Of a DNA stretch of 34,855 bases, positions 1 to 33,190 are shown piece by piece. The DNA is from Acidobacteria bacterium RIFCSPLOWO2_12_FULL_65_11 (GTDB lineage: Bacteria; Acidobacteriota; Vicinamibacteria; Vicinamibacterales; CAVVIG01), in assembly GCA_001767495.1 (NCBI GenBank), contig MELA01000123.1, forward strand, positions 1,727 to 36,581, in the 5' to 3' direction. How positions within the stretch are numbered: the first letter of the stretch is position 1; every line of letters begins with the position of its first letter. The translations under genes were made by a program, and so were the position numbers. The notes beneath the pieces were generated by a model. That model saw only the letters and a program-made list of their open reading frames with translations, was not told the origin of the DNA and searched no databases.

Positions 1-1489
1 GCGACCCAACACGTGGTCACCCGGCAACGCCAACCACACGACGAGGGCGGACGCCGCGCAAAGCCCGGCCGAAACGAACGCCACGGTGCCGCGATTCGCC
101 AGATAGATCGGCACGATCGCCAGCGCCGACACGCTCGCCAGCACGGTCGCTGACGACTGCATCCCGAGTTGTGGCAGCAGGACGTAGCCGGCGATCAGCG
201 AGCCGCACACGGCCCCAGCCGTATTGGCCAGGTACAACATCCCAGCGCGCCGGCCGACCGATGGCTCGGCACGCTGCACGATGGCGTTGGCCAGTGGAAA
301 CGTGAACCCTGCCAGCAGAGCGGGCAGCCCGATCTCGGGCAGCAGCAGCTTGAGATTGAACCAGAGCTCGGTCAGGGCCCGCCGTGCCGGCGCCATCGCC
401 CGGAGGTCCGCTCCCCCGGCACCCGCCGCATCGACACTCGCCGCACCGAGCCCGAAGAGCACCGTCAGCACGAACAGCGCCTGTACCATCATCAGGGCCT
501 GGGCGGGACGGCCGTGTCGGCGCTCGAACCAGCCACAGAGCAGCGCCCCCACCCGAGGCCGACCAGCAGCAGCGTGAGCAGCAGCGAGAACACCGCGCGG
601 AAACCGCCCAGCAGGATGCTGGCATGGCGCAACCACAGGATTTCCATGCCCAGCGCGCCGAATCCGGAGAGGGCCAGCGCCAGGGTCGTCCCCACGCCAC
701 CGCGCCTGATGGCAGCGGCGACCTCGCTGGTGCGACCGTCGGCCGCTTCTGCCTCTTCTCGTGCTTCGACGTCTTCGGTTCCCTAGGTGTCTCCGGTTGC
801 ACCTCCGGAGCCGCCGGCCTGCGGGCAGCCAGCCACAGCGCGCCAGCGGCCGCGCAGACATTCAGTGATACGGCGACCATCTGAGTGGCAAAGAGGCCGG
901 CCACCGGCACAAAGGCGAAGTCGGTGAGGAACGCTCCCGCCGCGGCGCCGACGGTATTCACCCCGTAGAGCAGCGCGATCGTCCAGCCGCTGACGGTGAG
1001 GTCCGACCTCACCAGGTAGCGGATCAAGACGGTCAAGGTGCCGCCCATGAGCAGCGTCATCGGAGCAGCCAGCAGGATCGCGAGACCCGCTCGAGCGATG
1101 TAGGACACCAGGGTCAGATCGCTCCATCCGTCCGCTCCAGTCGTATAGGCGGACATGCCGGCGACCAGGGCACCGAGTTGCGGCAGGACGAGCGAGACTC
1201 CCAGGGCCAGCGCGGCGATGAGCCCCTCCATGTAGGCATAGGCTCGCAGGAGCGAATCGGGAAGCACGGCATAGCGCCGGTCTGCCCACTGGCCCATGGC
1301 GTAGCTGCCTACGCCAAGCCCGAGCATGAAGATGGCAATGACGAGGGACGCCGAATGCACCGTGTTGCCGAATACGTGACCGAATTCCCGCACCCAGACA
1401 ACCTGATAAATCAGCCCGCTGATGCCTGACAGGAAGAAGAGGATGTAGAGGAGAGCCGAGCCCACGATATCGGGGTCCTTCCAGGTCAA
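1..1489 (-). pseudogene. Fused MFS/spermidine-synthase-like membrane protein, frameshifted, 3' end outside window
   Basis: Multipass membrane protein resembling the N-terminal transporter-like half of fused MFS/spermidine synthases; the family motif SGISGLIYQVVWVREF lies near residue 21 and is followed by GLGVGSYAMGQWADR. A TTG at 1489 starts the frame; no strong ribosome site is seen. The protein must be read in three frames. The first runs from 1489 to about 780-700, the second continues from about 780 to 555 (GALGMEILWLRHASILLGG), and the third runs from about 555 to the window edge (LLLPEIGLPALLAGFTFPLA, YLANTAGAVCGSLIAGY). Homology-like sequence continues smoothly across both breaks, so two single-base indels, rather than three genes, explain the pattern. 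The second break sits in a G-rich run (546-554 on the plus strand), which also fits a sequencing error. The spermidine-synthase domain would lie beyond position 1. Family call is firm; whether the gene is truly broken is not. Confidence 0.75.
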
Positions 1490-4516: not shown

Positions 4517-6604
4517 ATGGCCAGACGAGAGCCTTCCGGGACCTTCGGTCGCTCGGTGCCGGTGCTCGTTCACCTGGCCGTTCCCTGGATGCTCGTCGCG
4601 TTATTGGAGCTGGGACTGAGCGCCCTCATTCCAGATACGGCCCTGCGGAACGAGCAACTGCCGTTTGGCGCCAGGATCGGCCTCGCTGCGTATGGCCTCA
4701 CGCTCCTCGCCGCTGGCGTGGGCGCCGTCTGTGGACTCCTGATGCTGCTGGCCCGCCCGGGCCGACGACATCCTGTCGTCCACTGGACGATCGGCCGTGT
4801 GCAGACCTTCGTCGTGTGGGTCGCCGTTCTTCTGTACGGGGCGAGCTGGACGGCCTTCTGGAACGCCGGCGTGTTTCTCGATCGCGAGGCCTTCCTTTTC
4901 TGGCTGCCTCATCCCGTGCAGGTCTTCCACTGGGTGTACCCCCCGCTCGCCGTCGGCGTCCTCGTCTCGACACTGGCGGCGGCAGTGGTCCTGGGCCGAT
5001 GGGTTCCTCGCTTTGTGGCCGCCAGGCCTCTTTCGTTTCAACGCCAACTTGTCGTCACCGCGGGCGCCGCCCTCGGCGCGTGCGGTCTTGCGGCGCTCGT
5101 CGGGGCGTTGACCTACGGGGGAGAAGCGACGACGCCCGATCGCTCGAAATCTCTGTACGCCGTGACCCGCGACGATCGTGCCGGACCCCTGGCCCACGCG
5201 GTTGCGGATCTGCGGAGACGCCTGTCGCCACCCGCCGACCTCCCGGTCATCGTCCTCAACGAGGGGATCGGGATCGTCCGGCGGCCCATCGTGTCGATGG
5301 AGCAGTATCTGGCCGGCGTCGATCGGGGCCGCGTCAAGCCGTGGAACGTGCTCTCGATACAGATCGAGTCTCTGCGTTCGGATCAGCTTCGCGCCTACGG
5401 TGGCGGCCGGGACGTCATGCCGACGCTCGATGCGCTGGCCCGCGAGTCGCGCGTGTTCACCAATGCCTACATCCAGGCGAGTCATTCGAATTACGCGGAT
5501 CTGGTTCCGTTGTCATCGCATTACCCCCTGCGGTCGACCGAGGAGTACGCCTATCCGCCGAACCCGACCTATCCACGGGTGCTCATCTACGACGTCCTGA
5601 AGGCCGTCGGGTACAAGACGGCCATCTTTTCCTCCCAGAACGAGAACTGGGGAGGGATGCTCAACTACCATCGGCCGAGCAGTCTCGATCGCTTCTTCCA
5701 CGCGGAGACGTTCGCCGGTCCGACCTATACGCCATGGGAGGATGCCGGGTTCGCGCAGTGGGTCAAGCAGACCAAAGGCGCTGGGAGCGTCGACGATCGC
5801 TACACCGTGGGCGAGGCCATGCAGTGGATCGACGGCGTCGCCGGCAGTCCGTTCTTCCTGCACATGAACCTCCAGAGCAGCCACGTGCCGTACGTGGTGC
5901 CCGAAGGCTTCCCGCATCGATTCAGCCCAGAGAAGCTGGACTTCACGATCATGTGGGGGAAGTTCCCACTCGACAAGATCGAAACCGTCAAGGATCGCTA
6001 CGCGGACAGCCTGTTCTACGAGGACACACAGATCGCGCGGCTGTTCGACCATCTTCGACAGCGCGGGCTGTGGGAGAACACCGTGATCGTCGTGGGCGGC
6101 GACAACGGCGAGGCCTTTTACGAGCACGGCTTTCCTTCTCACGCCGGTCCGCTGTTCAACGAGGTGATGAAGGTGCCGATGATCGTCCGGGCGCCAGGGC
6201 TTCTGCCTGGCCGTGACGATCGCCCGGCGATGTTCCTCGACATCCCGCCATCGGTGTCCGACCTGCTGAGCCTTCCGGCCCATCCAAGTTTTCAGGGGAT
6301 CAGCCTGTTCGAGCGTCGCAGCAACCCGGATCGCTCGCTCTACATGATCGTCCAGACGCCGTTGGCGTACCAGTCGGCCATCGTCCGCTCGGGCTACAAG
6401 CTCCTGTTGTCCGAACGGGACGGCGTGCGGCTGCTCTTCGACTTGACCCGCGATCCGGGAGAAAAGCGGAACATCGCTTCGTCTCGTCCGGATCTGGTCG
6501 ACCAATTGACCGGCCGACTGCAGGTGTGGCGTGGGGAACAGCTCACGTACTATCAGGATGTTTCACGGCAGAGCAGAGAATACCCACCAGTACTCAAGGA
6601 CTGA
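4517..6604 (+). CDS. Membrane-anchored sulfatase / LTA-synthase-like enzyme (copy A)
   Basis: A 695-residue protein with about five N-terminal membrane segments (roughly residues 15-36, 55-79, 95-115, 138-160 and 176-199) and a large C-terminal alkaline-phosphatase-superfamily domain from about 275. The sulfatase/LtaS-type core starts with NVLSIQIESLRSDQLRAYGG, where Glu284 sits at the usual metal-ligand position. It is followed by QASHSNYADLVPLSSHYPLR, where the nucleophile Ser/Thr is expected, and by GGDNGEAFYEHGF near 527-539, which carries further metal ligands. Such enzymes transfer or hydrolyse phosphoglycerol, phosphoethanolamine or sulfate groups on envelope glycans; the substrate is not identifiable here. 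A close paralogue lies at 19169-21325. The next gene overlaps its end or starts immediately after it, suggesting cotranscription. Confidence 0.88.
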   Translation: MARREPSGTFGRSVPVLVHLAVPWMLVALLELGLSALIPDTALRNEQLPFGARIGLAAYGLTLLAAGVGAVCGLLMLLARPGRRHPVVHWTIGRVQTFVVWVAVLLYGASWTAFWNAGVFLDREAFLFWLPHPVQVFHWVYPPLAVGVLVSTLAAAVVLGRWVPRFVAARPLSFQRQLVVTAGAALGACGLAALVGALTYGGEATTPDRSKSLYAVTRDDRAGPLAHAVADLRRRLSPPADLPVIVLNEGIGIVRRPIVSMEQYLAGVDRGRVKPWNVLSIQIESLRSDQLRAYGGGRDVMPTLDALARESRVFTNAYIQASHSNYADLVPLSSHYPLRSTEEYAYPPNPTYPRVLIYDVLKAVGYKTAIFSSQNENWGGMLNYHRPSSLDRFFHAETFAGPTYTPWEDAGFAQWVKQTKGAGSVDDRYTVGEAMQWIDGVAGSPFFLHMNLQSSHVPYVVPEGFPHRFSPEKLDFTIMWGKFPLDKIETVKDRYADSLFYEDTQIARLFDHLRQRGLWENTVIVVGGDNGEAFYEHGFPSHAGPLFNEVMKVPMIVRAPGLLPGRDDRPAMFLDIPPSVSDLLSLPAHPSFQGISLFERRSNPDRSLYMIVQTPLAYQSAIVRSGYKLLLSERDGVRLLFDLTRDPGEKRNIASSRPDLVDQLTGRLQVWRGEQLTYYQDVSRQSREYPPVLKD

Positions 6605-8714
6605 AGGCTTGCGGAGCGGCCTCCGGCTGTACGGCGCTGTCATCGTGCTGGCCGGAGGCCTGACGTATTGGAACAGCCTGTCGGGACCCTTCATTCTTGA
6701 CGATCAGACCTCGATCGTCGGCAACGAACAGATTCGCCGCCTGTGGCCGCCGCCGGATGTGCTGTTCCCGGCCCGAGAGCTTTCCACCGCAGGGCGACCC
6801 GTTGTCAGTGTCTCGTTTGCGCTGAACTACGCGTTTGACGGGCTGGAGGTCGACGGCTATCACGTCGTCAACGTCGCGATCCATCTGTGCTGCGCGCTTC
6901 TTCTGTTTGGCGTCGTTCGACGCACGCTGAACCTGCCTTCAGTCGTAGTGTCCGGCTTCAGCCGGACCTTGTTGCCGCAATCCGCCGGCCACTCTGCGAA
7001 CCTCGCGCTGGCCTCCGCGCTCATCTGGATGCTGCATCCGCTGCAGACCGAAGCGGTCAACTACGTCACGCAGCGAACCGAGCTGCTGATGGCCTGTTTC
7101 GGCCTGCTGACGTTGTACGCCGGCATGCGCGCTCACGAAAGCACGCTCGCACGTGGCGTCCGCCTCGATGCGGACCATGCTTTCGTACGTAGTGTCCGGC
7201 TTCAGCCGGACCGTGGTTGGGCGTGGCAATGGTTGGCGGTGGTGGCCTGCACGTTGGGCGCGGGCAGCAAAGAATCGATGGCGACCGTGCCGGTTCTGAT
7301 TGTTCTCTTCGACCGGATCTTTGTCTTCGAGTCGCTGAAAGAGGCGTGGCGCGTTCGGTGGCGCTTGTACCTAGGGCTTGCCGCCTCCTGGATCGTGCTG
7401 GCGGCCTTGATGTGGTCCGGCCCACGGTCGTCGTCCACGGGATTCTCGACGGGCGTGAGTCCGTGGGTCTACTTGCTCAATCAGACGGTGCTGATCGTCC
7501 GGTACCTGAGACTGACCTTCTGGCCGAGCTCGTTGGTCATTGATTACGGCGTGCCGCAGCCGTTGACGCTCGCCGACGTCATGCCGTACGCCGCGCTGCT
7601 CGTGCTCCTGCTGCTCTCAACGATGGTGGCGCTGAAGTACCGGCCGAAGCTGGGATTCCTGGGAGCCTGGTTCTTCATCACCCTGGCTCCCGCGTCGAGC
7701 GTCCTTCCCATCGCCACCTGGGTGGGCGCCGAGCGGCGCATGTATCTGCCGCTGGCGGCCGTCGTGGTCCTCTTTGTCGCGATGAGCGCGACCGTGCGAG
7801 GGGCGACGACCATCAGGGTGGTGGTCGTCGTCCTGCTTTCGGCGGCGCTCGCGATGGGCACGGTACGTCGCAACCGCGACTACCAGTCTGCCATCACGCT
7901 CGCACAGACGGTGATCGAGCGGTACCCGCACGCCCGCGCGCATACGTGGCTGGGGGAGGGGTTGATCATCGAGGGCCGCCGGGAGGAGGGGATCGCTCAG
8001 CTGCGCGAGGCGACCGCGGGTGATGCCAAAGCCCATCTCGGCCTGGGCCTTACCTTGTTCGAGGACGGAAGGCTGGACGAAGCCGTCGACCAGCTTCAGC
8101 AATTCGTCCGCAAAGAACCGCTGCTGTTGGAGGTGATCTCGGCCCGCCAGACGATCGGCGCGGCCTTTCTCAAACAGGGCAAGCTCGGCGACGCCGAAGC
8201 GGAGTTCCGCGAGCTTGTGCGGATGCGACCGGCAGATGCAGATGCGCACGGCCTGCTTGCCGAGGCACTGTTCAAGCAGGGGAAATTCGAAGAGGCCATC
8301 GGCCACTATCAGCAGCAGCTCAAGGCGAAGCCGAACTTGGTCGACGTGCTGACCAATCTCGGGATCTCGTCGATCGCGATCGGCCGGGTCGACGAGGCCA
8401 TTCGGCACTTTCGGCGGGCGGCCGAGCTCGACCCGGGAAACGGCGGCGCCGAGCGGAACCTGGCGCGGGCGCTCCTGGAGAAGCGGGACTACAACGAGGC
8501 GGCCGTTCACGCCGAGCGCGCCATCGACCTTGCGGCCGACGATCCGGTCGCGCACGACGAGCTTGGTCTCGCGCTCGCAGGTCAGGGCAAGCTGGATGAG
8601 GCGATTGTCGAGTTCCGCCGTTCGCTGCAGCTCGATCCAAACGACGCCGAAGTCCGCGACCACCTCGCCGCCGCCCTCCGCGCACGGGCCGGCTCATCGC
8701 CCGTCAAGCCGTAG
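6558..8714 (+). CDS. TMTC-like membrane protein with C-terminal TPR repeats, interrupted in frame by REP elements
   Basis: The N-terminal half is a multipass membrane domain of the kind found in TPR-containing O-mannosyltransferase-like (TMTC) proteins. Motifs include YWNSLSGPFILDDQTSIV, RPVVSVSFALNYAFDGLEVD and HPLQTEAVNYVTQRTELL. The C-terminal 270 residues contain about seven TPR units (for example ALFKQGKFEEAIGHYQQQL). Start is uncertain: GTG 6531 and ATG 6558 overlap the sulfatase gene, whereas TTG 6609 follows its stop and has AAGGACTGAAGG just upstream. Two REP palindromes and one decayed copy lie inside the coding frame, encoding VVSGFSRT (6945-6967) and RSVRLQPDR (7189-7211). These lengthen periplasmic or loop segments without breaking the frame. 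The likely role is sugar transfer or assembly at the envelope with the upstream sulfatase; this is inferred from family and context. Confidence 0.8.
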   Translation: MFHGRAENTHQYSRTEGLRSGLRLYGAVIVLAGGLTYWNSLSGPFILDDQTSIVGNEQIRRLWPPPDVLFPARELSTAGRPVVSVSFALNYAFDGLEVDGYHVVNVAIHLCCALLLFGVVRRTLNLPSVVVSGFSRTLLPQSAGHSANLALASALIWMLHPLQTEAVNYVTQRTELLMACFGLLTLYAGMRAHESTLARGVRLDADHAFVRSVRLQPDRGWAWQWLAVVACTLGAGSKESMATVPVLIVLFDRIFVFESLKEAWRVRWRLYLGLAASWIVLAALMWSGPRSSSTGFSTGVSPWVYLLNQTVLIVRYLRLTFWPSSLVIDYGVPQPLTLADVMPYAALLVLLLLSTMVALKYRPKLGFLGAWFFITLAPASSVLPIATWVGAERRMYLPLAAVVVLFVAMSATVRGATTIRVVVVVLLSAALAMGTVRRNRDYQSAITLAQTVIERYPHARAHTWLGEGLIIEGRREEGIAQLREATAGDAKAHLGLGLTLFEDGRLDEAVDQLQQFVRKEPLLLEVISARQTIGAAFLKQGKLGDAEAEFRELVRMRPADADAHGLLAEALFKQGKFEEAIGHYQQQLKAKPNLVDVLTNLGISSIAIGRVDEAIRHFRRAAELDPGNGGAERNLARALLEKRDYNEAAVHAERAIDLAADDPVAHDELGLALAGQGKLDEAIVEFRRSLQLDPNDAEVRDHLAAALRARAGSSPVKP
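6945..6967 (+). repeat. REP palindrome inside the TMTC-like gene (plus orientation)
   Basis: GTAG-TG head followed by the palindrome GTCCGGCT-TC-AGCCGGAC. It begins exactly on a codon boundary and encodes V-V-S-G-F-S-R-T. It sits in a predicted loop between RTLNLPS and LLPQSAGHSANLA. Confidence 0.9.
7158..7211 (+). repeat. REP doublet inside the TMTC-like gene (one decayed, one intact)
   Basis: A decayed core GTCCGC-CTCGAT-GCGGAC at 7158-7175 is followed, 36 nt core to core, by an intact GTAG-headed REP at 7189-7211. Here the intact copy is read in a different frame from the one at 6945 and encodes SVRLQPD. Both keep the gene open. Confidence 0.85.
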
Positions 8715-8813
8715 TCAAGCCGTAGTGTCCGGCTTCAGCCGGACCTGGAAGCTTCAGCCGGACCTGGAGCTTCAGCCGGACCTGCAGGAGGTCCGCCTAA
8801 AGGCGGACGCTAC
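8704..8813 (+). repeat. REP cluster between convergent TMTC-like and DUF5916 genes
   Basis: An intact plus-oriented REP lies at 8722-8744. It is followed by two decayed copies keeping only the half GCTTCAGCCGGAC (8751-8763 and 8769-8781), and by a minus-oriented C-type REP at 8791-8813 (GTCCGCCT-AA-AGGCGGAC then GCTAC). Just before the first REP, the 11-mer TCAAGCCGTAG is tandemly duplicated (8704-8714 and 8715-8725), and its first copy contains the TAG stop of the TMTC-like gene. The hairpins could also act as a bidirectional transcription end; no separate T-run terminator is seen. Confidence 0.85.
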
Positions 8814-19168: not shown

Positions 19169-19312
19169 ATGAGCAAACCCAACGCGGCTAGGAAGAAGGC
19201 TCTCCGTCCGACGGTGGCTCGCGCCAGGTCGTCGTGGGCCTGGGTCTTCGAGCCTTCCGCTCCGATACTTGTTCATCTGGCGGTCCCTTGGCTGCTCGTC
19301 GCGGTGCTGTAA
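19169..19312 (+). pseudogene. Severed N-terminus of sulfatase copy B, ending at an in-frame TAA
   Basis: ATG 19169 opens a frame that matches sulfatase copy A at its first membrane helix (APILVHLAVPWLLVAVL against VPVLVHLAVPWMLVALL). Codon 48 is TAA (19310-19312) where copy A has GAG (Glu31). The frame then continues without shift as LGLSALIPDTALRDEQ. A single G-to-T change of a GAA codon would explain the stop. The break could be a real nonsense mutation or a base-call error. Confidence 0.75.
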
Positions 19313-21325
19313 TTGGGACTGAGTGCACTGATTCCGGATACGGCCCTGCGGGACGAGCAGCTGGCATTCGGTGCCAGGATCAGCCTGGCGGCGTACAGTC
19401 TCACGCTTCTCATGGCCGGCGTGGGTGCCATTGCTGGGCCCCTACTGTTGATGGCCCGCCTGGGCACGCCTGGAGTTCATCCTGTCGTTCGCTGGACGCT
19501 CGGCGGCCTTCGAGCCCTCGTGGTGTGGGCCGCCCTCTTACTGTACGGCGCGAGTTGGACGGCTTTCTGGAACGTCGGCGTGTTTCTCGACCGCGGAGCC
19601 TTTCTCTTTTGGTTGCCTCATCCCGTGCAGGTCTTCCACTGGGTGTACCCACCGCTGGCCATTGGCGTCATCGTCGCGACGCTCGCGGCCGCCGTGGTCT
19701 TGGCCTGGTGGGTTCCTCGTTGGGTTGCCGCCATGCGGTCCGTGGTGCAACGCCAGATCGTGGCCGCCGCCGCCAGCCTCGTTGGCGTGTGCGCCGGGGT
19801 GGCACTCATCGGCAGCCTGGCCTACGGGGGTCAAGAACCCGAGCAGTTGGAGACTTCGTATGCGCTGACCCGCGACGATCGCACGGGGCCGCTGCTTCAT
19901 GCGTTCGCGGATCTTCGCAGACGCCTCTCGCCTCCCGCAACATTGCCGGCGATCACGGTCAGGGCAGGGATCCAGAGCATCCGGCGACCGATCATCTCAA
20001 TGGAACAGTATCTGGCCGACGCCGATCGGAGCCAGGTCAAGCCGTGGAATGTCCTGATGATACAAATCGAGTCGCTGCGTTCCGATCAGCTTCGCGCCTA
20101 CGGTGGCACGCGAGACGTCATGCCGACGTTGGACGCCCTGGCGCGCGAGTCGCGAGTGTTCACGAACGCCTACATCCAGGCGAGCCATTCCAACTACGCG
20201 GATCTTGTTCCCCTGTCATCACATTACCCGCTGAGGTCGGAAGACGAACAGTACACCTACCCCGCGAACCCGACCTATCCTCGCGTGCTCATCTACGACG
20301 TGCTGAAGGCCCTCGGGTACAAGACGGCCATCTTTTCCTCCCAGAACGAGAATTGGGGAGGCATGATCAACTTTCATCGGCCGAGCAGCCTCGACCGCTT
20401 CTTCCATGCAGCAACCTTCGACGGTCCGACGTACGCACCCTGGGAGGACATTAGTTTCGCCGAGTGGGTCAAGGAAACAAAGGGCGCCGGGAGCGTGGAT
20501 GACCGTTACACGGTGGGAGGAGCGATTGAGTGGATCGACAGTGTCGCCGGCACCCCGTTCTTTCTCCATATGAACCTGCAGAGCAGCCACGTCCCTTACG
20601 TGGTGCCGGAAGACTTTCCGCATCGCTTCGGTCCGAAAAAACTGGACTTCACGATCATGTGGGGAAAGTTCCCGATCGACAAGATCGACATCGTCAAGGA
20701 TCGCTACGCAGACAGCCTGTTCTATGAAGACACGCAAATCGCGCGGCTGTTCGAGTATCTTCGGCGCCGCGGGCTTTGGGAAGACACCGTGATCGTCATT
20801 GGCGGTGATAACGGCGAGGCCTTCTACGAACACGGGTTTGCCGCTCACGCCACCTCACTGTTCAACGAGGTCATGAAAGTACCGATGATCATCCGGGTAC
20901 CTGGATTGGAGGCCAGCCGCGACGATCGTCCGGCAATGTTCCTTGACATTCCCCCCCCGGTGTTTGACATCTTGAGTCTGCCGGCCCATCCCAGCTTTCA
21001 GGGGATCAGCCTCTTCGAGCCACGGTCCGACCCCGCCCGGTCCATCTTCATGATCGTGCAGACTCCGGTGGCGCACCAGTCGGCGATTGTGCGCTCGGGG
21101 TTCAAGCTTCTCCACGCCGAACGAAGTGGAAGCTCTCTTTTGGGAAGATATCTTCTCTTTGACCTGGTGCACGATCCTGGAGAACAGGTCAACGTTGCGG
21201 CATCCCAGCCAGATCTGCTCGATGAGCTGTCCCGACGGCTGCAGCTGTGGCGTGGGGAACAGCTCAGCTACTACACCGACATCGCACGTCAGGCCCGCGA
21301 ATATCCACCTGTCCTCAAGGACTGA
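19313..21325 (+). CDS. Sulfatase / LTA-synthase-like enzyme (copy B), N-terminally truncated
   Basis: A 670-residue open frame beginning with the TTG directly after the in-frame TAA. It is a close paralogue of the protein at 4517-6604 over its whole length, with identical stretches around the active site (ESLRSDQLRAYGG, QASHSNYADLVPLSSHYPLR, IGGDNGEAFYEHGF). Membrane helices 2 to 5 and all catalytic motifs remain; only the first helix is cut off. If TTG 19313 is used, the enzyme would lose its N-terminal anchor but might still insert through the remaining helices. No ribosome site is visible for it, so either reinitiation, readthrough, pseudogenisation or a sequence error must apply. It ends at CTCAAGGACTGAAGGC, the same sequence that follows copy A, showing that the duplication included the 3' flank. 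A convergent glutamate dehydrogenase follows. Confidence 0.8.
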   Translation: MGLSALIPDTALRDEQLAFGARISLAAYSLTLLMAGVGAIAGPLLLMARLGTPGVHPVVRWTLGGLRALVVWAALLLYGASWTAFWNVGVFLDRGAFLFWLPHPVQVFHWVYPPLAIGVIVATLAAAVVLAWWVPRWVAAMRSVVQRQIVAAAASLVGVCAGVALIGSLAYGGQEPEQLETSYALTRDDRTGPLLHAFADLRRRLSPPATLPAITVRAGIQSIRRPIISMEQYLADADRSQVKPWNVLMIQIESLRSDQLRAYGGTRDVMPTLDALARESRVFTNAYIQASHSNYADLVPLSSHYPLRSEDEQYTYPANPTYPRVLIYDVLKALGYKTAIFSSQNENWGGMINFHRPSSLDRFFHAATFDGPTYAPWEDISFAEWVKETKGAGSVDDRYTVGGAIEWIDSVAGTPFFLHMNLQSSHVPYVVPEDFPHRFGPKKLDFTIMWGKFPIDKIDIVKDRYADSLFYEDTQIARLFEYLRRRGLWEDTVIVIGGDNGEAFYEHGFAAHATSLFNEVMKVPMIIRVPGLEASRDDRPAMFLDIPPPVFDILSLPAHPSFQGISLFEPRSDPARSIFMIVQTPVAHQSAIVRSGFKLLHAERSGSSLLGRYLLFDLVHDPGEQVNVAASQPDLLDELSRRLQLWRGEQLSYYTDIARQAREYPPVLKD

Positions 21326-21375
21326 AGGCGGCCGCCGGACCCGGGGAGCCCAGGCCACACCTTCACAACCTCGAA

Positions 21376-25228: not shown

Positions 25229-27865
25229 TTGTCGCCATTGACCCGCCTCGATCCAGCCCGTCTGCGCCTGCCCGACAAGCCTGCCATCGAGGGACTCGAA
25301 GCCAAGTGGACCGAGCGGTGGGGGGTGTCCGGTGTGTACCGGTTCGATCGGAGCCGGCCGCGCGCCGACGTCTATGCCGTCGACACGCCGCCCCCGACCG
25401 TCAGCGGCTCGCTGCACGTGGGCCACGTCTTCTCGTACACCCACACCGACGTGATCGCCCGGTTCCAGCGCATGCGAGGCAAGGCCGTTTTCTACCCGAT
25501 GGGCTGGGATGACAACGGGCTGCCGACCGAGCGGCGCGTCCAGAACTACTACGGTGTGCGTTGCGATCCGTCGCTTGCCTACGATCCCGCGTTTGCGGCG
25601 CCAGAGAAGCCGGGCAAGCAGCCGGTCTCAGTGTCGCGGCCCAATTTCATCGAGCTCTGCAATCGATTGACCGCCCAGGACGAGAAGGCGTTCGAGCATC
25701 TGTGGAGGTACCTCGGGCTGTCGGTGGACTGGTCGATGACGTACGCGACGATTGGCAAACGGGCCGAGCGCGCCTCGCAGCTGGCGTTTCTGCATCTCTT
25801 GCGCCGCGGCCTTGCCTACCAGCTCGAGGCGCCCACGCTCTGGGACGTCGACTTCCGGACGGCCGTCGCGCAGGCCGAGCTCGAAGACCGCGAGATGCCC
25901 GGCGCGTACTACCGGATCCGATTCGCTCTGCCTGATGTCGCTGGGTCTGCCGGGTCGAATGTAGTGTCCGGCTTGAGCCGGACCGTCGAGATTGAAACGA
26001 CTCGTCCTGAGCTCATTCCAGCCTGTGTCGCCCTCGTGGCGCACCCTGACGATGCGCGGTATCAGCCACTGTTTGGCACCGAGGTCACCACGCCCCTCTT
26101 TGGCGTGCGGGTGCCGGTCAATCCGCATCCGCTGGCGAACCCCGAGAAGGGGAGCGGCATCGCGATGATCTGCACGTTTGGCGACGTAACGGACGTCACG
26201 TGGTGGCGCGAGCTCAATCTGGGAGTGCGCGCCATCGTGCGGCCCGATGGGCGGCTGGCGCCCGTCCGGTTCGGCGAGCCGGGCTGGGAGTCGGAGGATC
26301 CACGTCGCGCGCAGGAACGCTACGCCCAGCTGGAAGGCAAGAGCGTCGGCAAGGCGAGGGAGCAGATGGTGCAGCTGCTGCGCGACTCGGGTGATCTGAT
26401 CGGCGAGCCGCGCCCGATCACGCACGCCGTCAAGTTTTACGAGAAGGGCGATCGGCCCCTTGAGATCATCACGAGCCGGCAGTGGTTCATCAAGACGATC
26501 GAGTTCCGCGAAGCCTTGCTTGCCCGCGGGCGCGAGATCGAGTGGCATCCGCCCTACATGCAGGCCAGGTACGAGAACTGGGTGAACGGCCTCAACGGCG
26601 ACTGGTGCGTCAGCCGCCAGCGGTTTTTTGGCGTGCCCTTTCCGCTGTGGTACCCGATCGACGCCTCGGGCCGCGTGGACTACGGGCGTCCGATGGCGGC
26701 GCGTGAGGCCGGGCTGCCGGTCGATCCGTCAACCGATGTACCGCCCGGCTACCGCGCAGACCAGCGTGGGGCGCCGGGCGGATTCGTCGGGGATCCGGAC
26801 GTCATGGACACGTGGGCCACCTCGTCGCTCACTCCCCAGATCGCGTGCGGATGGCCGGACGATCCGGATCTGTTCGCGCGGACCTTTCCAATGGACCTGC
26901 GTCCGCAGGCCCACGACATCATCCGCACGTGGCTCTTCGACACCGTGCTGCGGTCGCACCTCGAGCACGATTCGCTGCCGTGGAAGAACGCCGCGATCTC
27001 CGGCTGGGTGCTCGACCCGGACCGCAAGAAGATGTCGAAGTCGAAGGGCAACGTGGTGACGCCGCTCGCTCTTCTCGAGGAGCACGGTTCGGATGGCGTT
27101 CGCTACTGGGCCGCCAGCGGCCGGCCGGGTACCGACACGGCGTTCGACCCCAGCCAGATGCGCGTGGGCCGGCGTCTGGCGATCAAGCTGCTCAACGCGT
27201 CGAAGTTCGCACTCGGCGCGGCCGAGCCGCAGGGCGCGGTTGTGGCGCCGGTCGATCAAGCGATGCTGCGCAGTCTGGCGGCGCTCGTCGAGGAGGCGAC
27301 CGAGGCGTTCGAGGCGTACGACTATGCCCGCGCGCTGCAGCGGACCGAGAGTTTCTTCTGGCGCTTCTGCGACGACTACCTCGAGCTCGTCAAGGGTCGC
27401 CGCTACGGCGACCTGGGGCCGGAAGGCGCCGCCTCGGCTAATTCAGCGTTGGCCGCGGCCCTCTCGGTCCTGCTCCGCCTGCTCGCGCCGTTTCTGCCGT
27501 TTGTCACCGAGGAAGTCTGGTCGTGGTGGCAGGAGCGGTCGATTCACCAGGCGGCGTGGCCGACATCGGCCGAGCTGCTGTCGCTCGTCGCGGACAACTC
27601 AGAGGCGACGCGCCAGATCGATCAGGCGGCGTACGAGTGGGCCACCGAAGTGCTGTTCGAGGTGCGGAAGCAGCGCTCGGAAGCCAAGCAGCCGCTGAAA
27701 GTGCCCATCACGATGGTGACCGTGAGAGCCCAACGGCGGCAGGTCGGACTGATGCCCATCGTCGAGAACGATCTGAAGTCGGCGCTGCGCGTGCAGGTGT
27801 TTATCGCGTCGGTTGGCGAGCCGCGCGAAATCGTCGTGCAGGGATACGAAGCGATTGCATTGTGA
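25229..27865 (+). CDS. valS: Valine--tRNA ligase carrying an in-frame REP insertion
   Basis: An 878-residue class I aminoacyl-tRNA synthetase that charges tRNA-Val. HIGH appears as HVGH at 63-66 within PTVSGSLHVGHVFSY, and KMSKS at 601-605. The GWDDNGLPTERRVQNYYGV region and overall length look like the archaeal/actinobacterial-type ValS. The CP1 editing region is recognisable by EIETTRPELIPACVALVAHP. Just before it, residues 245-252 are VVSGLSRT, encoded precisely by a REP (25961-25983), so a mobile palindrome has been accommodated in an essential enzyme at a loop leading into the editing domain. The TTG start at 25229 directly follows the response-regulator stop; the TTG at 25238 is an alternative. 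nadC overlaps the stop (GTGA). Confidence 0.95.
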   Translation: MSPLTRLDPARLRLPDKPAIEGLEAKWTERWGVSGVYRFDRSRPRADVYAVDTPPPTVSGSLHVGHVFSYTHTDVIARFQRMRGKAVFYPMGWDDNGLPTERRVQNYYGVRCDPSLAYDPAFAAPEKPGKQPVSVSRPNFIELCNRLTAQDEKAFEHLWRYLGLSVDWSMTYATIGKRAERASQLAFLHLLRRGLAYQLEAPTLWDVDFRTAVAQAELEDREMPGAYYRIRFALPDVAGSAGSNVVSGLSRTVEIETTRPELIPACVALVAHPDDARYQPLFGTEVTTPLFGVRVPVNPHPLANPEKGSGIAMICTFGDVTDVTWWRELNLGVRAIVRPDGRLAPVRFGEPGWESEDPRRAQERYAQLEGKSVGKAREQMVQLLRDSGDLIGEPRPITHAVKFYEKGDRPLEIITSRQWFIKTIEFREALLARGREIEWHPPYMQARYENWVNGLNGDWCVSRQRFFGVPFPLWYPIDASGRVDYGRPMAAREAGLPVDPSTDVPPGYRADQRGAPGGFVGDPDVMDTWATSSLTPQIACGWPDDPDLFARTFPMDLRPQAHDIIRTWLFDTVLRSHLEHDSLPWKNAAISGWVLDPDRKKMSKSKGNVVTPLALLEEHGSDGVRYWAASGRPGTDTAFDPSQMRVGRRLAIKLLNASKFALGAAEPQGAVVAPVDQAMLRSLAALVEEATEAFEAYDYARALQRTESFFWRFCDDYLELVKGRRYGDLGPEGAASANSALAAALSVLLRLLAPFLPFVTEEVWSWWQERSIHQAAWPTSAELLSLVADNSEATRQIDQAAYEWATEVLFEVRKQRSEAKQPLKVPITMVTVRAQRRQVGLMPIVENDLKSALRVQVFIASVGEPREIVVQGYEAIAL
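25961..25983 (+). repeat. REP palindrome inside valS
   Basis: GTAG-TG head and core GTCCGGCT-TG-AGCCGGAC. It starts on a codon boundary of valS and encodes V-V-S-G-L-S-R-T, the same reading frame as the REP at 6945 in the TMTC-like gene. Confidence 0.92.
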
Positions 27866-32471: not shown

Positions 32472-32529
32472 GTAGTGTCCGGCTTCAGCCGGACCGTGGA
32501 TGGGTCGTAGTGTCCGGCTTCAGCCGGAC
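32472..32529 (+). repeat. Left REP doublet of the RAYT unit
   Basis: Two identical GTAG-headed G-type REPs in direct orientation, separated by CGTGGATGGGTC. Perfect inverted partner of 33052-33109. Confidence 0.95.
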
Positions 32530-32557
32530 AAGGATCGCATCTTGCCAGCAACAAGGT

Positions 32558-33061
32558 ATGTTCACTGGCAACCCCGGCCACCTGAGGTCGTTCGACTACA
32601 CCGGTCCGCATCGGTATTTCCTAACGTTTTGTACCAGTACGCGCCGGCATCTGTTCACAACCCGCGACCGAGTTGACCTTGTATTGATGCAGATTTTGCG
32701 AAGTGCCGCTGACGAACGGTTTGCAATTGTTGCGTACTGCTTCATGCCGGACCACGTCCATCTCCTCATCGAAGGGCAGTCCGATTCGTCGGACTGCCGT
32801 CGATTCATCGCCCGTGCGAAACAGTTCTCTGGCTTCCACTATTCGAAGGCCTTCGGTCATCGCCTGTGGCAGAGATACGGGGTCGAGCGCATCCTCCGGA
32901 GCGAAGAGGCGACCCTGGTCGCCGCGAGATATGTGCTGGAAAATCCGCTCCGGGCCGGCCTGGCCAGGTACGTGGAGGAGTACCCGTTCCTCGGCTCGAC
33001 GACGCATACAGTCAGCGAGATTCTGGCGGTCGTGTCTGATATCTCCTCACGGTCCGGCTGA
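32558..33061 (+). CDS. REP-associated tyrosine transposase (RAYT, HUH/Y1 family)
   Basis: A 167-residue single-stranded-DNA transposase-like protein. It has the Y1_Tnp core: YFLTFCTSTRRHLF near the N-terminus, the HUH metal motif MPDHVHLL (H66, H68), FIARAKQFSGFHY, then LWQRYGVERILR and ARYVLENPLRAGLA with the candidate catalytic Tyr125. RAYTs are known to bind and cleave GTAG-headed REP palindromes. The palindromes flanking this gene and spread through the window all have this head, which makes them its likely substrates. ATG 32558 has AAGG three bases upstream; a longer open frame reaching back into the methyltransferase gene is rejected. The TGA stop (33059-33061) lies inside the first right-hand REP, so the final SG residues come from the repeat. 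The gene appears intact. Confidence 0.92.
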   Translation: MFTGNPGHLRSFDYTGPHRYFLTFCTSTRRHLFTTRDRVDLVLMQILRSAADERFAIVAYCFMPDHVHLLIEGQSDSSDCRRFIARAKQFSGFHYSKAFGHRLWQRYGVERILRSEEATLVAARYVLENPLRAGLARYVEEYPFLGSTTHTVSEILAVVSDISSRSG

Positions 33062-33190
33062 AGCCGGACACTACGACCCATCCACGGTCCGGCTGAAGCC
33101 GGACACTACGTACTGTCCACGGTCCGGCTGAAGCCGGATCCCGCGCGCATCGATCGTAACGTGTTACGTGGCGTCCGGCTTCAGCCGGAC
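33052..33190 (-). repeat. Right REP array of the RAYT unit
   Basis: Minus-oriented REPs lie at 33052-33074 and 33087-33109. A third copy at 33122-33139, ending GGAT, keeps the 35-bp period, and a headless palindrome lies at 33173-33190. The first contains the RAYT stop codon, and the last contains the stop of the convergent amidotransferase gene. The remainder of the gap holds nothing else recognisable. Confidence 0.92.

Follow-up and report, generated by a model that had tools for sequence, protein, structure and literature searches.

The window, by which the whole analysed stretch of 34,855 nt is meant, belongs to a 98%-complete draft genome of 3.55 Mb in 153 contigs. It carries a gene for a TMTC-like membrane protein, a valine--tRNA ligase gene and a gene for a REP-associated tyrosine transposase (RAYT), and GTAG-REPs lie within or beside each of them. 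The features are the following:

6531..8714, + strand: host gene, TMTC-like multi-pass membrane protein with C-terminal TPR repeats, 727 aa (open reading frame list, TPR families)
6945..6968, + strand: GTAG-REP copy 1, perfect 24 nt, read VVSGFSRT, codon position 1
7153..7176, + strand: degenerate REP copy, 4 mismatches, read VRLDAD, in the same frame as the SVRLQPD copy
7189..7212, + strand: GTAG-REP copy 2, perfect 24 nt, read SVRLQPD
8722..8745, + strand: intergenic GTAG-REP directly after the host gene
25229..27865, + strand: REP-bearing valine--tRNA ligase gene, valS (NF000540, 1356 bits, cut-off 900)
25961..25984, + strand: GTAG-REP with a G loop, inside valS, read VVSGLSRT
32472..32530, + strand: two direct GTAG-REPs upstream of the RAYT gene
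32555..33061, + strand: RAYT gene, about 168 aa, start ATG at 32555 (PF01797, NF047646, PDB 4er8)
33051..33144, - strand: inverted GTAG-REPs downstream of the RAYT gene, 35-nt spacing

The start of the TMTC-like gene is that of the gene model, and the coding signal runs from about 6617 (coding segment 6617-8693). The gene is matched in 60 of the 60 genomes searched, with identity of up to 60% outside the source genome; no TMTC model matched it, and the name TMTC, which follows the initial annotation and the presumed fold, is our assumption. As that annotation had described, two perfect REPs, both with the sequence GTAGTGTCCGGCTTCAGCCGGACC, are read in two different frames of this one gene (VVSGFSRT at 6945-6968 and SVRLQPD at 7189-7212), together with the decayed copy read VRLDAD. 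Copy 1 amounts to a 9-aa (27-nt) insertion, seen as a nine-residue gap in nearly all aligned homologs, and the copies at 7153-7176 and 7189-7212 jointly form an insertion of about 21-24 residues, with a gap in the nearest homologs. Copy 1 is placed between membrane segments and the other two copies in the next loop; in a simple hydropathy scan the REPs, residues 139-146 and 208-228, fall outside the predicted membrane segments.

Elsewhere in the window, a 490-aa ORF at 17-1489 (-) was split by the gene finder into 75-546, 554-746 and 754-1481, a three-frame split that may reflect frameshifts or atypical composition. The long stretches 4536-6608, a sulfatase gene, and 19239-21329 are paralogous and 72-82% identical by blocks.

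The REP unit, its copies and the linked RAYT

The REP unit consists of GTAG, TG and a perfect hairpin, TCCGSC-TTNA-GSCGGA, whose loop is here TT(C/T/G)A. A degenerate 24-mer with a C or G loop has 285 exact copies in the source genome and a 23-mer with the loop base left free has 495, more than 100 per genome, with 0 in the reversed-pattern control for either; since hundreds of exact matches stand against none, the copies are not due to chance. At up to 4 mismatches, 342 copies (control 0) are found in a 1.85-Mb sample composed of 120 stretches of the source genome and the window, with the loop base C in 230, T in 85 and G in 27, and GTAGTG starts 280 of the 377 copies with up to 5 mismatches, which places GTAG directly 5' of the hairpin. 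At least one exact 23-mer was found in 20 of the 59 relatives searched, with 0 to 217 per genome, and REP abundance is therefore patchy inside one family. A genome record titled Bifidobacterium breve also holds the REP (stretches L166, L169 and L204); its title or bin looks wrong.

A PF01797 search of the source genome gave a single Y1 transposase match, which lies inside the window. The encoded RAYT scores 88.9 bits against NF047646 (NCBIfam, cut-off 80), has TnpArep as its best solved relative (PDB 4er8, E=2.6e-5) and shows, by eye, the HUH motif DHVH and a tyrosine in RYVLENP. The REPs are thus linked to a RAYT gene in the manner of a REPtron, with an HUH motif and catalytic tyrosine in the enzyme and inverted REPs at the flank, and this RAYT presumably moves them. 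The TGA stop of the RAYT gene (33059-33061) is itself supplied by the adjoining inverted REP, the protein ending in ...SRSG.

Genes in the sample were called with our own three-periodic Markov/Viterbi finder and not taken from annotation; the coding fraction was 0.86, and REPs were masked in the finder, so REP stops had no influence on the calls. As in REPtron systems, REPs are mostly extragenic and close to gene 3' ends: 244 of the 342 copies are noncoding, 22 lie at an edge and 76 in a coding segment, and a median of 20-27 nt separates the REP from the 3' end of the upstream gene in convergent and tandem gaps. The copies form 219 islands, 121 of them singlets, distributed over tandem gaps (103), convergent gaps (33), divergent gaps (23), contig ends (8) and single coding segments (52, a quarter of islands). 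If REPs landed at random, about 86% would be expected in genes, so the majority of in-gene landings have been lost or avoided.

Reading frames and host genes of in-gene REPs

The initial annotation regarded the REP as open in four of six frames, which holds for the C-loop form; with a T loop 3 frames are open, and with a G loop 5. That this openness was selected, so that the REP could reside in genes, was also suggested there, and has hardly any probability. The commonest form does leave 4 of 6 frames open, and in-gene copies are enriched in open frames, but random 24-mers at 65% GC are more open than the REP, averaging 4.97 of 6 (REP shuffles 5.00; GTAGTG plus a random hairpin 4.48), and 93% of them have at least 4 open frames. 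Furthermore, one frame is lost to the conserved GTAG, the loop base that gives the most open frames, G, occurs least often (27/342), T, which gives the fewest, occurs three times as often (85/342), and the majority of copies are outside genes.

Open frames are nevertheless over-represented in genes, as had been suspected. Among the raw in-gene copies, 62 of 76 are open against an expected fraction of 0.664 (p=0.003), a p-value that, like the others of the frame test, is somewhat too small because copies that share a gene are not independent; where coding sequence extends for at least 150 bp on both sides, 56 of 63 are open (p=4e-5). In 80 loci from other genomes, fetched by the C-loop form so that the loop base is not assessable there, the figure is 27 of 30 in-gene copies (p=0.004), and two further relatives, with few in-gene copies, have 9 of 11 open.

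The stops in the remaining 14 of the 76 raw copies are probably explained by gene junctions or merged genes. When islands with at least 120 bp of coding sequence on both sides are considered, 41 of 47 are stop-free and 6 carry a stop; in three of these six, Pfam matches on both halves identify junctions (DUF2520/PanB, SKI/Metallophos and XdhC/HTH), in two a family is found on the left half only, and the last we take, judging by eye, to be a MurG/MurC junction. All six were set aside as gene junctions before the 41 islands were counted, and 41 of 41 open follows from this step, so that the strength of that figure (probability 7e-8 under random frames, the six junction-like islands having been removed first) rests on the junction reading, whereas that of the raw 62/76 does not.

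The 41 accepted islands hold 52 copies in 33 coding segments, and 52 of 52 are open: 12 read VVSGFSRT, 15 SVRLQPD, 10 GPAEAGHY and 12 VRLKPDTT, with 2 in the TAG frame and 1 in the TGA frame. Each of these last three carries exactly the base change that removes the stop, namely GTAG to GTGG in Lnt and in a glycosyltransferase, and a G loop in a kinase. In the SVRLQPD frame a T loop would create TAG, and none of the 15 copies there has one; among the 34 copies in the remaining three open frames, 11 do (p=0.011). G-loop copies account for 10 of 76 in genes and 16 of 244 in noncoding DNA. The frame bias is survivorship through purifying selection, a filter that acts on each insertion and not on the element.

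The host genes are conserved. A homolog was found among the comparison loci for 19 of the 41 accepted islands, most with a gap at the REP, and these genus-level homologs suggest that the REPs were inserted; for stretches L036 and L087 the homolog has no clear gap at the REP. When ValS is aligned with the solved ValRS 1gax, its REP lies in a gap, and SMC (937 bits) holds four REP islands. Other accepted hosts are Lnt, Maf, a GatA-like amidase, a penicillin amidase, the Lhr helicase and a recombinase of the phage-integrase type, as well as DNA ligase D (LigD), ThyX and a YfcC-like antiporter, these three below profile cut-offs; PurH, MnmE and a methylthiotransferase are what we take three further proteins to be, judging by their sequences. 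The idea that REP-bearing genes are pseudogenes or false ORFs could draw on the match to a single homolog ORF in only 19 of 41 islands, and on the epimerase and lactonase joined across a REP in stretch L095, perhaps by gene fusion or read-through. It is nonetheless highly improbable: SMC, ValS, Lnt and Maf give full-length matches that span the REP, their open frames have no other disabling change, and ValS is the only one found in this nearly complete genome, weaker matches being split across other ORFs. The homolog gaps, the conserved hosts and the open frames thus support the earlier description of the REP as a coding insertion tolerated in real genes, and REP-decorated proteins presumably fold and work.

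Relatives have their own REP-like inserts in the matching loops of PurH (L260) and MnmE (L252, L262), and other repeat peptides in loops of the methylthiotransferase and in a linker of ThiS-MoeB type. Such inserts at matching places in other genera, together with the position of several REPs in inter-domain linkers (LigD, glycosyltransferases, kinase-PEGA), might suggest that in-gene REPs have acquired a function, either as an encoded peptide or as a hairpin in the mRNA by which translation is slowed between domains. This is very unlikely, given that the REPs are read in several frames as different peptides in unrelated proteins, with no dominant frame or orientation among in-gene copies, and that relatives' inserts of different sequence share one loop, which a permissive loop explains.

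Some further observations were made along these genes. The peptides WGPASTKND, EKGYDPFST and FAEATADRRSL, in the methylthiotransferase and ThiS-MoeB-type loops of relatives (L245-L274), possibly represent further in-gene repeat families. At 5186-6523 (-) of L095, methylmalonyl-CoA epimerase and lactonase domains share one ORF with a REP between them, a possible REP-made fusion. At 10276-10429 of L066, a 15-nt tandem array of about 8 units lies between two REPs in a histidine-kinase-like gene, and the homolog is without the array.

Very probably, then, these are selfish REPs spread by a RAYT, and those seen in genes are the in-frame, stop-free insertions that survived in permissive loops or linkers. 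Group-3-like GTAG-REPs would be spread by the RAYT encoded in the window as selfish single-strand hairpin elements that land inside as well as outside genes; in-gene landings that truncate or shift the frame would be removed by purifying selection, and those that keep the frame, bring no in-frame stop and sit in permissive loops or linkers would remain. Being frame-keeping and stop-free, the surviving in-gene REPs would be translated as 9-25 extra residues.

Tandem duplications at the GTAG head

Upstream of the GTAG head lie tandem repeats of 7-28 nt whose final base directly precedes GTAG, and the opposite side of the REP has almost none; some examples are 15404-15455 of L111, 8644-8735 of L091 and 16270-16309 of L035. 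Duplications exactly at the junction occur at 17 of the 204 free heads (5' flanks), at 1 of the 225 free tails (3' flanks) and at 65 of 20,000 random positions; without three REP-like units, 14 of 204 heads have a duplication (p=2.5e-4 versus tails), and with TRF 29 of 205 heads and 2 of 226 tails are positive (p=2e-8). Exact units in coding context are multiples of three in 5 of 5 cases (9, 9, 15, 15 and 18; the coding context of one, L024, is doubtful, as it lies in a set-aside junction island) and in 1 of 12 outside (p=0.001). In an early TRF test that was blind to orientation, islands outside genes showed no excess (39 of 157; control mean 33.1) and islands in genes did (19 of 62 against 6.5). 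In other genomes the head-side effect is weaker: the exact test gave 2 of 100 heads versus 0 of 109 tails and 1 of 34 versus 0 of 48 (pooled p=0.096), and the TRF test 12 of 103 heads versus 3 of 110 tails (p=0.014).

Generic hairpin slippage was considered and rejected; 323 non-REP perfect hairpins gave 4 left-foot and 0 right-foot duplications. It may also be that pre-existing tandem repeats served as REP targets, against which stand the REP tails without a tandem-repeat remnant and the homologs of L057 and L066 without the repeat.

In 92% of the 271 near-perfect copies GTAG is preceded by C or T, the commonest context being GTAC before GTAG (46 of 271). Because the duplications lie exactly at the GTAG head and are nearly absent at tails, they point to nicking by RAYT. 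A tentative reading, to which we give about one chance in three, is that RAYT nicks genomic REPs in place between this pyrimidine (Y) and GTAG. The 3' end released on the upstream side would slip back, be extended and be rejoined, leaving a tandem duplication of the flank that ends at the nick. No account of REP- or RAYT-linked tandem duplication by nick or slippage was found in the open-licence PMC literature, and the GTAG-head duplications look like a new observation; the spread of REPs is described as poorly understood in the accessible part of PMC8266576.

Known REP systems and meaning of the in-gene copies

The comparisons that follow apply to the accessible portions of the papers cited. 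GTAG-REPs inside genes are known elsewhere (Di Nocera et al. 2013, PMC3733652), and the present case is another instance of what has been described in other bacteria. The elements of that study share the GTAG head, the hairpin and the association with RAYTs; some copies lie wholly within ORFs and encode residues, others give neighbouring ORFs TAG stops, and neutral insertion in loops or linkers was suggested there. What differs is that here a frame and loop-base test shows the filter, and that the hosts include SMC and the sole ValS. The accessible text mentions Acidobacteria for a group of tyrosine transposases only, and no account of GTAG-REPs in Vicinamibacter was found in the open-licence PMC literature.

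The Rickettsia palindromic elements (Ogata et al. 2000, 2002, via PMC10969869 and PMC3733652) are likewise selfish palindromes that sit in frame within conserved genes unrelated to one another, as do the 41 islands here, with 52 of 52 copies open after six islands had been set aside. Those elements are about 150 bp long with a conserved ORF peptide of their own, in contrast to a 24-nt unit here that is read in at least four frames (12, 15, 2, 10, 1 and 12 copies in the six relative frames) and has an identified RAYT.

The group 3 TnpA-REP of the Marinomonas sp. MWYL1 REPtron (PMC8266576) acts on a similar unit, a perfect palindrome with a GTAG guide and a four-base TTNA loop, the third base of which is free according to SELEX. 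Sequence and host are different, and cleavage there is at CT or CA; here C or T precedes GTAG in 92%, a figure read from sequence alone. The REPINs of Pseudomonas fluorescens (PMC3116915) resemble the present copies as RAYT-linked REP populations with doublets and tandem arrays; that study counted extragenic REPs, whereas a quarter of the present islands lie in genes and singlets make up 121 of the 219.

These results extend in-gene REPs to a REP-rich genome of Acidobacteria type with an identified transposase, and caution against annotating peptides such as VRLKPDTT and SVRLQPD as motifs, since these are transposon footprints. The sorting of insertions by selection according to frame becomes visible through a loop base that presumably makes no difference to the transposase. 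The strand-specific duplications at the GTAG head are a trace, in sequence only, of possible RAYT action. If the nicking model is true, REPs would be generators of local tandem repeats, with transposase activity leaving a readable scar, and in genes they would be a source of linkers that grow in frame by units of 9, 15 or 18 nt.
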